Assembly (NCBI RefSeq): GCF_003449035.1
Contig: NZ_QRGB01000001.1
Span: 3,348,001 to 3,412,000, forward strand
Length of the DNA stretch: 64,000 bases
From: Pedobacter indicus
Lineage (GTDB): Bacteria; Bacteroidota; Bacteroidia; Sphingobacteriales; Sphingobacteriaceae
Direction: 5' to 3'
The position numbers and the translations under genes were made by a program. Below, piece by piece: positions 9,784 to 54,493 of the stretch (the stretch's first letter is position 1; each line of letters begins with the position of its first letter). A model generated the notes under the pieces. The model searched no databases. It was not told the DNA's origin and saw only the letters and a program-made list of their open reading frames with translations.

Positions 9784-10291
9784 GTTACTAATAGAGAATA
9801 TCATACGATTTCTGGTGCTTATTCTTGCTCAGGTCTTTCTTTTCAAAAATATCGGTTATTACAACCTGGCATCTCCCTTTCCCTACATCATGGCGCTGAT
9901 GTTACTGCCGGCACGAATACCCAAATTTTTTCTTTTCACGATCGCTTTCCTCACAGGAATCACAGTTGATGCATTTTACGACACCTTAGGGGTTCATGCT
10001 GCTGCCTGCGTTACTCTCGCTTGGGCTCGCATTGTTTTCATTAATCTCACCCTTCAAGATGATGATTATGAAACCTCGTCCACACCCGGTATCAGTCAAA
10101 TATCGTTCCGATGGTTTTTTATCTATGCATTCGTTCTCAGCTTTTTCCATCATTTCACACTCTATTTATTAGAAGTGTTTTCTTTAAATAACTTCCTCTA
10201 TACATTAACTAGCATTCTTTTTAGTTGTATCTTTACCACCGTTCTGATTGTTTTATTTGAGTTGATCTTATATAGAAGGAAAAAGCGGTGA
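9776..10291 (+). CDS. mreD: Rod-shape-determining protein MreD
   Basis: 171 residues and strongly hydrophobic, with about five or six transmembrane helices and almost no soluble sequence, as in MreD. The motif FLTGITVDAFYDTLGVHAAA is a typical Bacteroidota MreD segment. The identification rests mainly on topology and its position between mreC and mrdA. It overlaps both neighbours (8 bases with mreC, 4 bases with mrdA). Confidence 0.88.
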   Translation: MAKLLIENIIRFLVLILAQVFLFKNIGYYNLASPFPYIMALMLLPARIPKFFLFTIAFLTGITVDAFYDTLGVHAAACVTLAWARIVFINLTLQDDDYETSSTPGISQISFRWFFIYAFVLSFFHHFTLYLLEVFSLNNFLYTLTSILFSCIFTTVLIVLFELILYRRKKR

Positions 10292-12129
10292 ACAGTTATT
10301 TTGCACGAAAATACATTATCCAAGGTATCATCATTGCAGCTGCCGCAGTCATTCTTTTGCGACTTTTTTACATCCAGGTTATTGATGACTCCTACTACCT
10401 ATCCGCGGAAAACAACGTTTTAAGAAAGATAGTTATCTATCCCGCACGCGGGGTTATCCTTGACAGGAACTCCGAAGTCCTCGTTCAGAATGAACCGGTT
10501 TACGATCTGATGGTAACGCCTCGCGAGGTTAAAGAAATGGATACAACACTTTTTTGTGAACTGGTGGGTATTGACAAAGAAGGGTTTGATAAGCGTTTTC
10601 TTAAAGCAAAAAATTATTCACCGTACAAGGCGTCCATTTTCGAAAAACAATTATCCGCCGAAACCTATGCCCGACTGCAAGAACACCTTTATGAGTTTCG
10701 GGGCTTCTATGTTCAAAACAGAACCGTACGAAATTATCCAGATAGCATTGCTGCCCAATTTCTTGGGTATATCAATGAAGTCACCGAAAAGGATATTGAA
10801 CGAAGCAATGGCTTTTATAGACCGGGCGACTATATCGGCGTAAGCGGTGTCGAACGAGCGTATGAAGAGTTGCTCCGCGGTCAGCGTGGTGTCCAAAACG
10901 TTATGGTGGATGCCTTCAACCGTCCGAAAGGGCATTTTGCAGACGGCAAGTACGATACCCTGGCAGTTGCCGGAGAAGAATTAATGTCTTCGCTCGATAA
11001 AGAGTTACAACAACTCGGCGAAACGCTTATGAAAAATAAGCTGGGTAGTATCGTTGCTATTGAACCTGCCACTGGTGAAGTTTTAAGCTTTGTAAGCAGT
11101 CCGTCTTACAACCCCAATATGATGGTGGGTCGGGAACGTGGAAACAACTATATGAAGTTGCTTTACGACCCGTTAAAGCCTATGTTCATACGCCCTATGC
11201 AAGCGCAGTACCCCCCGGGATCGGTTTTTAAAGTAATATCCGCCCTTGTAGCCCAACAAGCGCAGGTAATCGATAAAGATATGAGGTACCATTGTGTAGG
11301 TGGCTATCGGTACGGACGGAGCGGCTATATGCGTTGTACTCACGTCCATGGCTCCATCAATCTGGCAACCTCTATCCAGGCTTCGTGTAACCCATACTAT
11401 GCTTTTGCATTTGCACGGATGATTGATGGCCGCGGCAAGAAGCCGTCAGAGTCCTACAAAGATTGGCATGAAGCGATCCAGCGTTTCGGAATCGGTAAAG
11501 AGCTCGGTATCGATCTCCCAGGTGAAAACGCTGGAAACTTACCCACATCAGAATACTACACCAAACACTTCGGCAGCGACAAGTGGACCTCCGCTTATAA
11601 TATCTCTTTATCCATCGGACAGGGAGAGATGGGGATCACCCCTCTTCAAATGGCAAACGTCATGGCGATCGTAGCCAATCGTGGCTTTTACTATCGTCCA
11701 CACTTGATTAAATCCATCGGCGAAAAGAAAATCGTCAAACCTGAGTTTTCCGAAAAAATACCCGTTGGCGTAGACGCACAGTATTTTGAACCCGTAATCG
11801 AAGGAATGAGCCGTGCGGTCAATCAACCTGGCGGAACAGCTTATTCCGTTAAAATCAAAGATATTGAAATGGCCGGAAAAACCGGGACCGTACAGAACCC
11901 TCACGGTACAAATCACGCAGTTTTCTTTGCATTTGCACCAAGGGAAAACCCTAAGATAGCAATTGCCGTTTTCGTTGAAAACGCAGGCTACGGAGGGGTT
12001 TGGGCAGCACCAATAGCAAGCATGATGGTTGAAAAATATCTGAAAGATACAATTACACTACCAAAACACATCCAAGATCGTATCTACAAAGGGAGCATTT
12101 TACCAGATATAAAAAAAGCAGCAGAATGA
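10288..12129 (+). CDS. mrdA: Penicillin-binding protein 2 (elongasome transpeptidase)
   Basis: 613 residues, GTG start inside a GTGA overlap with mreD. One N-terminal membrane anchor (about 8-25) precedes the PBP dimerisation domain (RGVILDRN, then GVSGVERAYEELLRG). The transpeptidase domain has all three motifs: SVFK at 312-315 with nucleophile Ser312, SCN (in QASCNPYYAF) and KTGT at 531-534. It cross-links peptidoglycan during side-wall growth with RodA as glycosyltransferase partner. It ends in an ATGA overlap with rodA. Confidence 0.95.
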   Translation: MNSYFARKYIIQGIIIAAAAVILLRLFYIQVIDDSYYLSAENNVLRKIVIYPARGVILDRNSEVLVQNEPVYDLMVTPREVKEMDTTLFCELVGIDKEGFDKRFLKAKNYSPYKASIFEKQLSAETYARLQEHLYEFRGFYVQNRTVRNYPDSIAAQFLGYINEVTEKDIERSNGFYRPGDYIGVSGVERAYEELLRGQRGVQNVMVDAFNRPKGHFADGKYDTLAVAGEELMSSLDKELQQLGETLMKNKLGSIVAIEPATGEVLSFVSSPSYNPNMMVGRERGNNYMKLLYDPLKPMFIRPMQAQYPPGSVFKVISALVAQQAQVIDKDMRYHCVGGYRYGRSGYMRCTHVHGSINLATSIQASCNPYYAFAFARMIDGRGKKPSESYKDWHEAIQRFGIGKELGIDLPGENAGNLPTSEYYTKHFGSDKWTSAYNISLSIGQGEMGITPLQMANVMAIVANRGFYYRPHLIKSIGEKKIVKPEFSEKIPVGVDAQYFEPVIEGMSRAVNQPGGTAYSVKIKDIEMAGKTGTVQNPHGTNHAVFFAFAPRENPKIAIAVFVENAGYGGVWAAPIASMMVEKYLKDTITLPKHIQDRIYKGSILPDIKKAAE

Positions 12130-50852: not shown

Positions 50853-51485
50853 ATGAAAGCATTCCCTGTATTTATCATCGCACTCTTATTATTTGCGTCT
50901 TGTAACAATCGCAACAACCAACAAGGCGGCGATCAGGCTGACTCCGCAAACGTGTCAGCTGATACTACGAACATGCGCGTAGACAAAACAGACCTGACTC
51001 AGCTAAGTCTTGAGATCCTAAAGGATTTTAAAAACAAGAACTATGAGGCGCTTGTCCAGTATATTCACCCTGATGAAGGCGTTCGCTTCTCACCTTATGC
51101 ATTCATAGAGCCCGATACGCATGTTCAACTGTCGTCAGCTGACTTTCTCTCGGCGGTCAATAGCAATGAAAAAAGAATCTGGGGCAGTTTTGACGGTACG
51201 GGGGATGAGATTAATATGACAGCAAAGGAATATTTTGAGAGGTTTGTCTATGATGTTGATTTTCTTGAACCCGAGACCTTTAGTATTAATGAAACCATAT
51301 CATCAGGGAATAGCCTAAACAACCAAGCCGAGATTTACCCGGGAACGCAGTATACTGAAAGTCACTTTTCCGGCTTTGAAGAAAAATACAACGGAATGGA
51401 CTGGCGTGCGCTCCGGTTGATCTTCAAACAAGTAAACGGCAACTACTACTTAGTGGGTATTGTGCATGACGAGTGGACTATTTAG
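50853..51485 (+). CDS. Lipoprotein of unknown function
   Basis: 210 residues. Signal with Cys17 (LLLFASCNNR) and an Asn/Gln/Asp-rich linker (18-45). The rest looks like a single small domain (LEILKDFKNKNYEALVQYIH, then YNGMDWRALRLIFKQVNGNYY ending in GIVHDEWTI), reminiscent of NTF2-like folds. I do not recognise a family. It has its own upstream region with the repeat cluster. Confidence 0.65.
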   Translation: MKAFPVFIIALLLFASCNNRNNQQGGDQADSANVSADTTNMRVDKTDLTQLSLEILKDFKNKNYEALVQYIHPDEGVRFSPYAFIEPDTHVQLSSADFLSAVNSNEKRIWGSFDGTGDEINMTAKEYFERFVYDVDFLEPETFSINETISSGNSLNNQAEIYPGTQYTESHFSGFEEKYNGMDWRALRLIFKQVNGNYYLVGIVHDEWTI

Positions 51486-51584
51486 GGCAAATAGCGATCA
51501 GGCTGTGAATAACAAACCCATTGTTGATAAATAATTGTTCGGCTCACAGAATAAAACAATAGATTTGTCTTGATGTAAAATCAT

Positions 51585-51690
51585 AGCGATCAGGTATTAC
51601 ACTGGTAATAAAAAAGGGGAATCGTGTGAAATTCATGAGCTGTCGCGCAACTGTAAGTAGGAAATTTTCTATAAGCCAGATCACCTTCCT
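51585..51690 (+). ncRNA. Cobalamin riboswitch
   Basis: The core matches the cobalamin aptamer: GGGGAATCGTGTGAAATTC (51616-51634), AGCTG and GCAACTGTAA (51647-51656), then AAGCCAGATCACC (51673-51685), the B12-box region. The expression platform should lie in 51690-51830. The next genes are nrdB and nrdA, so B12 would control class I ribonucleotide reductase. The core boundaries are approximate. Confidence 0.82.
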
Positions 51691-51830
51691 TTTTCGCTAG
51701 ACTTTGCTTTCGCAAAAAAAGTAAATGTCCGAATGAATACTTAAAGGTATTATTTTAACACCCTGCACCCGTATCCGTTTGTACATCCTACTTTTTTGAA
51801 TTGAGTTTTCAAATTAAAATACAAAGTAGT

Positions 51831-52805
51831 ATGAGCATTTTTAACAAAAGGGTAAACTACAAGCCTTTCGAATACCCCGAGATCCTGAGTTTCACAGAGG
51901 CTATCAATCGGTCATTCTGGGTACATTCTGAAGTAGATTTTACGGCCGATATCCAAGACTTCCATTCACATTTAGATGATAATGAGAAAGAGGTGATCAA
52001 GAAAAGTTTATTGGCTATTGCCCAAATAGAGGTGGCTGTTAAATCTTTTTGGGGAAACCTTTACCATCACCTTCCAAAGCCTGAATTCAATGGTTTGGGA
52101 AGTACCTTTGCTGAATGTGAATTCAGGCATTCAGAGGCCTATTCAAGATTATTGGATGTATTGGGATATAACAATGAATTTGAAGAATTGATTAATGTCC
52201 CGGTGATTAAAAAGCGGGTCAACTACCTTTCGGAGGCTCTGGCACATACCAAATCTGAAGATGAGAAAGAATACCTTTTTTCGTTGATTCTGTTTTCTAT
52301 CCTCATCGAGAATGTATCCCTGTTCAGTCAATTCGCTATTATCTTGTCCTTTACACGTTTTAAGGGCGTGATGAAAAATATAAGCAACATTATTGCCTGG
52401 ACATCGGTCGACGAACAGATTCATGCCAATGCGGGTATTTACATTGTCAACAAAATCAAAGAAGAGTTTCCCGAATATTTTGATGAGGGTACGAAAAAAC
52501 GTATTTCTGACATTGTATTAAATTCAATTGAGGTCGAAGCAGAAATCCTTGACTGGATTTTTGAACGAGGGGAAATCGAAACGGTCAATAAAACCAATCT
52601 CCTGAACTTCATGAAATATCGTGCAGACGATAGCTTACGCCGAATTGGTTTACCGAGGGTCTTCAATGTATCGGAGAGCGACTACCAACCTATGGTATGG
52701 TTTGAAGAGGAGGTCTTTGCCAACAGCATGGACGATTTCTTTGCAAAGCGGCCAGTGGACTACACAAAACATGATAAAAGTATTACGGCAAACGATCTGT
52801 TCTAA
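51831..52805 (+). CDS. nrdB: Class I ribonucleotide reductase, small (R2) subunit
   Basis: 324 residues from ATG at 51831 (MSIFNKRVNYKPFEY). A start 30 bases earlier is less likely. Ferritin-like R2: ligand Asp36 in SEVDF, then E97-F-R-H100-S-E-A-Y104, which aligns with the Glu, His and radical Tyr of Escherichia coli R2, and later Glu in SILIENVSLFSQF and the Glu/His in DEQIHANAGIY. The Tyr indicates a tyrosyl-radical (class Ia-like) enzyme. It has no N-terminal ATP-cone. It precedes nrdA, the reverse of the usual order. Confidence 0.92.
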   Translation: MSIFNKRVNYKPFEYPEILSFTEAINRSFWVHSEVDFTADIQDFHSHLDDNEKEVIKKSLLAIAQIEVAVKSFWGNLYHHLPKPEFNGLGSTFAECEFRHSEAYSRLLDVLGYNNEFEELINVPVIKKRVNYLSEALAHTKSEDEKEYLFSLILFSILIENVSLFSQFAIILSFTRFKGVMKNISNIIAWTSVDEQIHANAGIYIVNKIKEEFPEYFDEGTKKRISDIVLNSIEVEAEILDWIFERGEIETVNKTNLLNFMKYRADDSLRRIGLPRVFNVSESDYQPMVWFEEEVFANSMDDFFAKRPVDYTKHDKSITANDLF

Positions 52806-52846
52806 AAAACGCATAATTCCTGTTAAAAAATATATAATTGACGAAG

Positions 52847-54493
52847 ATGGAAAGACTTTGGTGGTTAAATGAAGAAAGTCAGCAAATCCTGAACCGGGGC
52901 TATTTGTTGAAAGGAGAAACGACTAAAACGGCTATCGAGCGGATAGCAATGGCAGCTGCCAAACGACTCTATAAGCCTGAACTTTGCGAACCCTTTATCG
53001 AGATGATCGAAAAAGGATGGATGAGCCTAAGCTCACCCATTTGGGCCAATATGGGTACAGAAAGAGGTCTACCGATCTCTTGTTTCAATGTGTATGTACC
53101 TGATTATATTGAAGGCATCACCCATAAACTCGGCGAAGTAATCATGCAGACCAAAATTGGCGGGGGGACGTCGGGTTATTTTGGCGAGCTTCGCGAACGT
53201 GGCAGTGCGGTTACTGATAATGGCAAAAGTAGTGGAGCGGTAAGTTTCATGAAACTATTTGATACGGCCATGGACACCATCTCGCAAGGCGGTGTGCGGC
53301 GCGGAGCATTCGCTGCTTATCTGGATATTGACCATCCGGATATCGGTGAGTTCCTGGAGATCAAGAACATTGGAAATCCCATACAAAATCTATTCACCGG
53401 TATCTGTATACCCGATTACTGGATGCAGGATATGATCGATGGCGATATGGACAAACGTAAGATTTGGGCGAAGGTACTGGAAAGCCGCCAGCAAAAGGGT
53501 CTACCCTATTTATTGTTCTCCGATAATATTAACCGAAATAAACCCCAGGTTTATAAGGATAAGAACCTGAAAATATATTCAAGCAATCTGTGTTCAGAGA
53601 TTGCCTTACCGTCGAGTATCGACGAGTCCTTTATTTGCTGCCTATCATCGATGAACTTAGAGCTTTATGATGAATGGAAAGATACGGGAGCGGTTCGACT
53701 GGCGACTTTCTTTCTGGATGCCGTGCTTCAAGAGTTTATTGCTAAAACAGAAGACAATTACTACTTAGCTTCAGCAAATCGCTTTGCGAAAAGACACCGT
53801 GCGCTAGGATTAGGTGTGATGGGCTGGCATTCATACCTTCAAAAAAACATGATCCCCTTCGAGGGCATGGAGGCCAAGCAACTGACTACAAAAATTTTCA
53901 AAGATATCAGCGAAAAAGCAGAAAAAGCCAGTGCGGAGCTAGCAAATATCTATGGTGAGCCCGATCTGTTAAAAGGTTACGGAAAAAGAAATACCACCTT
54001 AATGGCAATTGCTCCTACCACTTCTTCTTCAGCAATTCTAGGTCAAACGTCACCAGGGATCGAACCTTTCAGTAGCAACTATTACAAAGCCGGCCTTGCG
54101 AAAGGTAATTTTATGCGGAAAAACAAATACCTGCGCCAGCTTTTGATTGAAAAAGGCATAGACAATGAGGATATTTGGCGCAGTATCATGTTGAACCATG
54201 GTAGTGTACAACACCTTACCGAATTGAGCGACGAAGAAAAATCTGTTTTCAAAACATTTAAAGAGATCAGTCAGCTTGAGATCATCCAACAGGCGTCTAT
54301 CCGACAAAAGTACATTGATCAGGCGCAAAGCCTCAACCTCAATATTCCGTCGAACCTGCCGGTTAAGGATGTCAATATGTTAATGATAGAAGCATGGAAA
54401 TTGGGGGTCAAGAGTCTTTATTACCAACGTAGCCAAAGTGTTTCGAAGGAGTTCATAGCCAATATGGTCACTTGCGTAAGCTGTGAAGCTTAA
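52847..54493 (+). CDS. nrdA: Class I ribonucleotide reductase, large (R1) subunit, no ATP-cone
   Basis: 548 residues from ATG at 52847 (MERLWWLNEESQQIL). Active site: Cys79 in LPISCFN, thiyl Cys249 and Glu251 in SNLCSEIALP, and a CC pair in SFICCLSSMNL. The C-terminal CVSCEA (Cys543 and Cys546) is the shuttle that passes electrons from thioredoxin or glutaredoxin. It is about 200 residues shorter than Escherichia coli NrdA because the N-terminal ATP-cone is absent. It makes deoxyribonucleotides with the R2 encoded just before it. Confidence 0.92.
   Translation: MERLWWLNEESQQILNRGYLLKGETTKTAIERIAMAAAKRLYKPELCEPFIEMIEKGWMSLSSPIWANMGTERGLPISCFNVYVPDYIEGITHKLGEVIMQTKIGGGTSGYFGELRERGSAVTDNGKSSGAVSFMKLFDTAMDTISQGGVRRGAFAAYLDIDHPDIGEFLEIKNIGNPIQNLFTGICIPDYWMQDMIDGDMDKRKIWAKVLESRQQKGLPYLLFSDNINRNKPQVYKDKNLKIYSSNLCSEIALPSSIDESFICCLSSMNLELYDEWKDTGAVRLATFFLDAVLQEFIAKTEDNYYLASANRFAKRHRALGLGVMGWHSYLQKNMIPFEGMEAKQLTTKIFKDISEKAEKASAELANIYGEPDLLKGYGKRNTTLMAIAPTTSSSAILGQTSPGIEPFSSNYYKAGLAKGNFMRKNKYLRQLLIEKGIDNEDIWRSIMLNHGSVQHLTELSDEEKSVFKTFKEISQLEIIQQASIRQKYIDQAQSLNLNIPSNLPVKDVNMLMIEAWKLGVKSLYYQRSQSVSKEFIANMVTCVSCEA

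Follow-up and report, generated by a model that had tools for sequence, protein, structure and literature searches.

A cobalamin riboswitch predicted to repress translation of a class Id ribonucleotide reductase operon in Pedobacter indicus

The 64,000-nucleotide stretch of the Pedobacter indicus genome analyzed here (contig NZ_QRGB01000001.1, positions 3,348,001 to 3,412,000, hereafter the window) contains a cobalamin riboswitch upstream from nrdB and nrdA, which encode a class I ribonucleotide reductase (RNR). Comparison of this locus with its relatives indicates that the riboswitch probably represses translation of nrdBA, a class Id RNR operon, in the presence of vitamin B12, and that the B12-dependent class II enzyme, NrdJ, then produces the deoxynucleotides. 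We infer that B12 itself is the repressing signal.

Results

A cobalamin riboswitch is located upstream from nrdBA

Scanning of the whole window with cmscan revealed a single cobalamin riboswitch (RF00174) on the + strand at positions 51576-51706, with a score of 42.9 bits (gathering threshold of 31.5 bits; E-value of 1.9e-7) and a match spanning the full model (positions 1-189). The aptamer ends 124 nucleotides upstream from the ATG codon of nrdB (position 51831), in fair agreement with the 140 bases that the original prediction had counted from the aptamer core. An RF00174-type aptamer is also present upstream from nrdBA in the congener (45.9 bits). A covariance model was built from 29 nrdB leaders, including that of the window, which scored 144.9 bits against this model as one of its training sequences. 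In the alignment of the 29 sequences, 6 of the 23 pairs of the model helices had changed on both sides, versus 2.3 in shuffled alignments, 99.6% of the cells being paired. A count as high as that observed was obtained in none of the 500 shuffles, although related sequences can surpass shuffles even without any structure; slid versions of the helices nevertheless scored far lower. Recurrence of the aptamer in the congener and in related nrdB leaders confirms, at the level of sequence comparison, that the RF00174 match is not due to chance.

The L5 and L13 loops, predicted to form the kissing interaction, display a complementarity of at least three contiguous pairs, including G-U pairs, in 42 of 43 riboswitch leaders; the window has three. 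A match to TAnnTTTG, which we take to be the −7 promoter motif of the Bacteroidota, is located immediately upstream from the aptamer. The motif TAnnTT[TC]G was present 45-95 nucleotides before the GGGAA sequence of the aptamer in 23 of the 43 leaders, whereas approximately 5% of windows drawn at random from these loci contained it. Three matches to sigma-70 promoters, for 1.9 expected, were disregarded. The features of the aptamer region and of the operon are as follows.

51560..51567, + strand: −7 promoter element TAGATTTG, Bacteroidota type (motif match), placing the transcript start near the 5' end of the aptamer
51576..51706, + strand: cobalamin riboswitch aptamer (Rfam match, own covariance model, and pair counts)
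51643..51647, + strand: L5 loop UCGCG, predicted kissing partner of L13
51700..51729, + strand: P13 hairpin (near-invariant core in leader alignments; strand-swap test, p<0.0001, see below; helix included in the pair-change counts)
51711-51715, + strand: L13 core CGCAA, within P13
51831..52805, + strand: nrdB, class Id radical-generating subunit, 324 residues (PF00268, 237 bits; PDB entry 6CWO, 553 bits)
52847..54493, + strand: nrdA, class Id catalytic subunit, 548 residues (NF006577, 771 bits, and TIGR02510, 717 bits, both over cut-off; PDB entry 6DQW, 1061 bits)

The genome harbors three cobalamin riboswitches, located upstream from nrdBA, metE, and an operon for a TonB-dependent receptor. 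The nrdBA aptamer is compact (131 nucleotides) in comparison to the latter two copies (192 and 198 nucleotides, respectively). Compact aptamers that prefer methylcobalamin or hydroxocobalamin are known, and the size of the nrdBA aptamer raises the possibility that the switch mainly senses these forms rather than adenosylcobalamin, thereby reporting general B12 uptake rather than availability of the NrdJ cofactor. We consider this alternative rather unlikely. The P6 accessory region varies greatly among cobalamin riboswitches according to PMC9600662, so that the size of the aptamer does not settle the identity of the ligand, and the physiological logic would favor adenosylcobalamin.

nrdBA encodes a class Id enzyme

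The class I RNR proposed by the original prediction was recovered with the PF00268 and TIGR02510/NF006577 profiles, and its assignment could be refined. The structural match of NrdA, 6DQW, is a protein that we take to be a class Id subunit. The alignment of NrdB with 6CWO was gapless over 324 residues. The latter structure is that of the class Id NrdB of Flavobacterium johnsoniae, as indicated in PMC6754362. Hallmarks of class Id, according to PMC8463856, include a glutamate as the first metal ligand, a second-sphere tyrosine, a lysine close to the metals, and a threonine partner of the tyrosine. Residues E67, K71, Y104, and T191 of the window NrdB correspond to this set and were retained in 81 of the 81 NrdB sequences compared. 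No Pfam match to an ATP-cone domain was detected in NrdA (548 residues), and no PF07972 match indicative of an nrdI gene was detected in the whole genome, in a search that rang in 3 of 14 controls. Based on the matches to the two structures, the four residues, and the lack of ATP cone and NrdI matches, the enzyme is, as judged from its sequence, a class Id RNR, which would contain a dimanganese center activated by superoxide, as expected from the properties of the family.

The genome encodes NrdJ and a second pair of B12-related isozymes

The original prediction proposed that a class II nrdJ gene should be present elsewhere in the genome and would have been contradicted by the lack of any other RNR. 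Searching the assembly (3.47 Mb, 99.99% complete) identified NrdJ, a protein of 853 residues (TIGR02504, 557 bits versus a cut-off of 399.95), and neither a class III NRDD nor a second NrdB. The RNRs found in the genome are thus two in number, NrdBA and NrdJ.

The gene located downstream from the second riboswitch is metE, since its product contains the Pfam Meth_synt_1 and Meth_synt_2 domains of cobalamin-independent methionine synthases. The genome also encodes the B12-dependent enzyme MetH, indicating that the logic of a repressed B12-independent isozyme would occur twice in this organism. Riboswitch-mediated control by B12 of B12-independent isozymes is established (PMC3766115). The operon located downstream from the third riboswitch encodes two DUF5074 proteins and one PKD-like protein in addition to the TonB-dependent receptor. 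From the riboswitch located upstream, we infer a BtuB-like receptor. A search for a single enzyme of corrin-ring synthesis, CobJ/CbiH, gave no match over cut-off in the genome (41.8 versus 246), and B12 is thus probably scavenged rather than synthesized de novo, as judged from this enzyme only.

The expression platform is predicted to act on translation

The leader downstream from the aptamer was analyzed as four strands, A being the 5' strand of P13, B its loop and 3' strand, and C and D segments located further downstream. The coordinates of the last three in the window are as follows.

51711-51729, + strand: strand B, P13 loop and 3' part (swap tests)
51784..51798, + strand: strand C; its 51789-51797 portion pairs with B (51715-51723) in the predicted ON state, the predicted OFF state being based on C:D pairing
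51823..51833, + strand: strand D, comprising the AUG start codon and the AAAGUAG immediately upstream; predicted to pair with 51784-51794 and thereby to mask the translation start

In the proposed mechanism, transcription would begin close to position 51576, as suggested by the promoter motif. Binding of B12 to the aptamer would be followed by the kissing of L5 and L13 and by stabilization of P13, as is known for the family. Retention of B in P13 would leave C free to cover the nrdB start codon by pairing with D, thereby stopping translation, whereas B would leave P13 in the absence of B12 and pair with C, leaving the start codon open. Comparative evidence supports the latter two predictions.

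For each pairing, the duplex energy of the strands of the same leader was compared to that of strands exchanged between genomes (swap test, with permutation p-values). For 24 de-duplicated leaders, one per genus or metagenome-assembled genome (MAG), own strands formed more stable duplexes than swapped strands for A:B (−7.67 versus −5.92 kcal/mol, p<0.0001), B:leader (−11.88 versus −9.26 kcal/mol, p<0.0001), and leader:D (−7.37 versus −6.05 kcal/mol, p=0.0004). The full set of 43 leaders provided p<0.0001, p<0.0001, and p=0.002 for the same pairings, respectively. The control pairings A:leader, A:D, and B:D were null both for the 24 leaders (p of 0.72, 0.82, and 0.98) and for the 43 leaders (0.79, 0.91, and 0.998). 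The mean obtained in an earlier run with 30 leaders and chosen columns agrees with the swap test. In the window, the duplex energies were −8.3 kcal/mol for B:C and −8.0 kcal/mol for C:D.

The energies predicted to be required for opening of the start region agreed with these pairings. With P13 formed, the mean cost for the 43 leaders was 6.57 kcal/mol versus 4.69 kcal/mol for shuffled leaders, the real leader being higher in 35 of 43 cases. Freeing B lowered the cost to 2.94 kcal/mol versus 6.10 kcal/mol if B was shuffled, the real B being lower in 41 of 43 leaders. The corresponding predictions for the window were 9.0 kcal/mol with P13 formed, 5.4 kcal/mol for the shuffled leader, and 5.0 kcal/mol with B free. 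The 38 related nrdB leaders lacking a riboswitch were unusually open (2.04 versus 3.36 kcal/mol for shuffled sequences, higher in just 3 of 38). These values for 43 and 38 leaders relied on plain shuffles; dinucleotide shuffles applied to 30 leaders led to 7.4 versus 4.5 kcal/mol, with a higher cost in 28 of the 30. No terminator-like site was found between positions 51400 and 52000. The co-adapted pairings across leaders, the concordant opening energies, and the lack of a terminator-like site in this interval together lead to the prediction that the B12 switch acts on translation by competition between B held in P13, B:C, and C:D.

Early termination of transcription, intrinsic or Rho-dependent, could alternatively be the mode of repression of nrdBA, the helix at the start codon being secondary. 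The Streptomyces nrdABS precedent, described as transcriptional control, would fit this alternative, as would the 124-nucleotide leader, which offers room for Rho; furthermore, a translation block can secondarily expose the mRNA to Rho. The negative terminator search and the fact that the start codon marks the end of the co-adapted helix argue in the opposite direction and make this alternative unlikely. The polarity of the switch is also relevant, since activating corrinoid riboswitches exist, as reported in PMC10653944. Activation of nrdBA by B12 is nonetheless extremely improbable: the layout of the P13-B, B:C, and C:D pairings predicts repression, a B12-independent enzyme produced solely in the presence of B12 would have no obvious use, and a repressing logic would also account for the coexistence of metE, preceded by its riboswitch, and MetH in this genome.

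An AUG located in the 3' strand of P13 (positions 51725-51736 of the window) opens a three-codon open reading frame whose stop codon overlaps a second AUG. This P13 AUG is kept in several relatives and missing in others, and may correspond to a leader peptide (upstream open reading frame) or to chance.

The riboswitch co-occurs with NrdJ in related genomes

Related nrdB loci were analyzed for the best 80 of 281 relatives. According to our covariance model, a riboswitch was located directly upstream from nrdB in 42 of these 80 loci (62-167 bits). These counts replace those of a regular-expression screen, which identified 29 of 80 and missed 13 aptamers found by the model. The other clear matches to the model corresponded to the two remaining riboswitches of the P. 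indicus genome, upstream from metE and the TonB-receptor operon, and to a second copy in a Polaribacter MAG (L094). NrdJ was detected over cut-off in 41 of the 42 genomes with an nrdB riboswitch versus 6 of the 38 genomes without it (Fisher p of 4e-15, uncorrected for relatedness), the absences being soft, since many of the 80 genomes are MAGs of unstated completeness. The 42nd riboswitch genome (L083) contains an NrdJ fragment cut by the end of a contig. In a quick NrdB tree, in which 38 of 77 inner branches were poorly supported, the state of the riboswitch changes 4 times and that of NrdJ 8 times. NrdJ is also missing from those members of the riboswitch-bearing clade that lack the riboswitch (L057, L107, L074, and L076). 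As the riboswitch changed state only four times, its co-occurrence with NrdJ is suggestive and does not amount to a corrected correlation.

Several loci had additional features. In five Paenimyroides-type genomes (L047, L056, L060, L063, and L067), nrdJ is located on the opposite strand approximately 2 kb from the nrdA match, thereby bringing together both isozymes and the switch in one locus. In the Polaribacter MAG, the second cobalamin riboswitch (1470-1619) serves an operon comprising TonB-receptor and DUF5074 genes, which stands directly before the nrdB riboswitch. Another locus (L008) contains two divergent full-length cobalamin riboswitches, at 9935-10132 on the − strand and 10175-10366 on the + strand, separated by 42 nucleotides; one is for a TonB-receptor/DUF5074 operon and the other for metE. 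A Bacteroidota-type riboswitch-nrdB arrangement was found on a contig (L071) assigned by binning to the alphaproteobacterium Thalassovita, perhaps due to a binning error. In Filimonas zeae (L081, G240:C4:615827-618070), NrdJ is encoded by an unusually long frame (1123 residues) matched in two pieces that share model positions 490-532, perhaps because of an insert.

Observations that weaken the proposed regulation

Several results do not fit, or only loosely fit, repression of translation by B12. The L5-L13 complementarity of the window consists of three contiguous pairs plus a mismatch, in comparison to four pairs in 34 of the 43 leaders. Its B:C duplex is weaker than the mean of the 43 leaders (−12.0 kcal/mol), and the register of its strand C is unlike that of most leaders. 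In the 30-leader run, B:C was poor in one leader (L098) and C:D in another (L042). The start region was no more closed than in shuffled sequences in 8 of the 43 leaders, and remained shut upon freeing of B in 2. Minimum free energy folding of whole leaders was no better than that of shuffles (z of −0.15, and −1.44 in another run). The swap tests correct only partly for relatedness, their control pairings sharing the same ancestry. Six genomes possess NrdJ and a related nrdB without a riboswitch; rescanning these loci with filters off returned at best 14 bits, revealing no local riboswitch at that sensitivity. Finally, independent pairs on the tree numbered two for supported branches or four for all branches, too few for significance.

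The modest Rfam score, the L5-L13 mismatch, and the below-average B:C duplex would also be expected if the riboswitch were undergoing decay and had lost its control of nrdBA. This is very unlikely. The congener, whose NrdB is 85% identical, has kept the riboswitch, the promoter motif is retained, and the start-codon hairpin, although its sequence is unlike that of other genera, maintains an opening cost well above that of shuffled leaders (9.0 versus 5.4 kcal/mol).

Origin of the operon

The distribution of the window-type NrdB was surveyed in 200 other genomes from the same order, all those listed belonging to the same family (Sphingobacteriaceae). Only the congener (G172) has a window-type NrdB (85% identity). 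The remaining 199 genomes provided 178 weak NrdB matches (best E-value of 1e-20; 22-27% identity among the matches listed) and 21 without any match. The nearest NrdB relatives outside the order, among the best 80 of 281, belong to the Saprospiraceae and Flavobacteriaceae. Since only the congener has this NrdB among the 200 genomes, the simplest reading is that the class Id operon was probably acquired horizontally by Albibacterium (the probable genus of the host and its congener), with loss of the usual NrdB of the family.

Discussion

A B12 riboswitch on nrdABS of Streptomyces was reportedly described by Borovok et al. in 2006, with transcriptional control of a class Ia RNR according to the title. 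Streptomyces with this riboswitch presumably also encode a class II NrdJ. The original prediction applied the same logic to the window. The isozyme part of this proposal stands, as a cobalamin riboswitch precedes a B12-independent class I RNR, NrdJ is encoded by the same genome, and metE and MetH provide a parallel. The mode of control may differ, since the platform looks translational. In comparison to the Streptomyces system, found in Actinomycetota, the enzyme is of class Id and the host belongs to the Bacteroidota.

Other systems share part of this arrangement. According to PMC10653944, the 3' side of P13 in the Priestia megaterium metE riboswitch is also a competitor for the 5' arm of a hairpin located further downstream, with the L5-L13 kissing loop deciding the outcome, but that hairpin is a terminator, whereas the hairpin described here covers the start codon. 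In E. coli btuB and env8HyCbl, as in our prediction, the kissing loop stabilizes P13 and the translation start is masked; other alternative pairings were proposed for these RNAs (same article), whereas the 3' strand of P13 and a co-adapted C are predicted to compete in the nrdB leaders. In Chlorobi, from the neighboring phylum Chlorobiota, a cobalamin riboswitch precedes nrdD, the gene for another RNR (ribonucleoside-triphosphate reductase), rather than class Id nrdBA (PMC8620254). The enzyme belongs to the same subclass as those of F. johnsoniae and Leeuwenhoekiella blandensis (PMC8463856, PMC6754362, and PMC5794259). A class II RNR is also present in L. blandensis, whose NrdB carries an ATP cone, unlike that of the window; the word riboswitch is absent from the text of PMC5794259. 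The riboswitch discussed beside class Id RNR in PMC9936198 is a manganese riboswitch. As far as found in the open-licence literature, the class Id target, the distribution with NrdJ in Bacteroidota, and the co-adapted translational platform are new.

Taken together, the data raise the possibility of a portable cassette placing DNA synthesis on cobalt (B12 and NrdJ) when B12 is available and on manganese and superoxide (class Id) only in its absence. The translational switch, with competing P13 and start-codon strands, would have co-evolved across the Bacteroidota and entered Albibacterium horizontally, replacing the NrdB of the family. We regard this broader proposal as evenly balanced between being right and wrong.

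The conversion of a kissing loop into a translation block is a step referred to as not known in PMC10653944, and the 43 leaders provide natural variants for its study. PMC9936198 raises the question of how far a class Id enzyme that scavenges superoxide can be relied upon in vivo; if repression by B12 is correct, class Id may serve as a backup for the B12 enzyme in many hosts. RNR is essential, and with only two such enzymes found in the genome, control of one of them by B12 would tie DNA synthesis to vitamin supply. If the proposed regulation is correct, loss of nrdJ should stop growth in the presence of B12 despite an intact nrdBA, and loss of nrdBA should stop growth in its absence.

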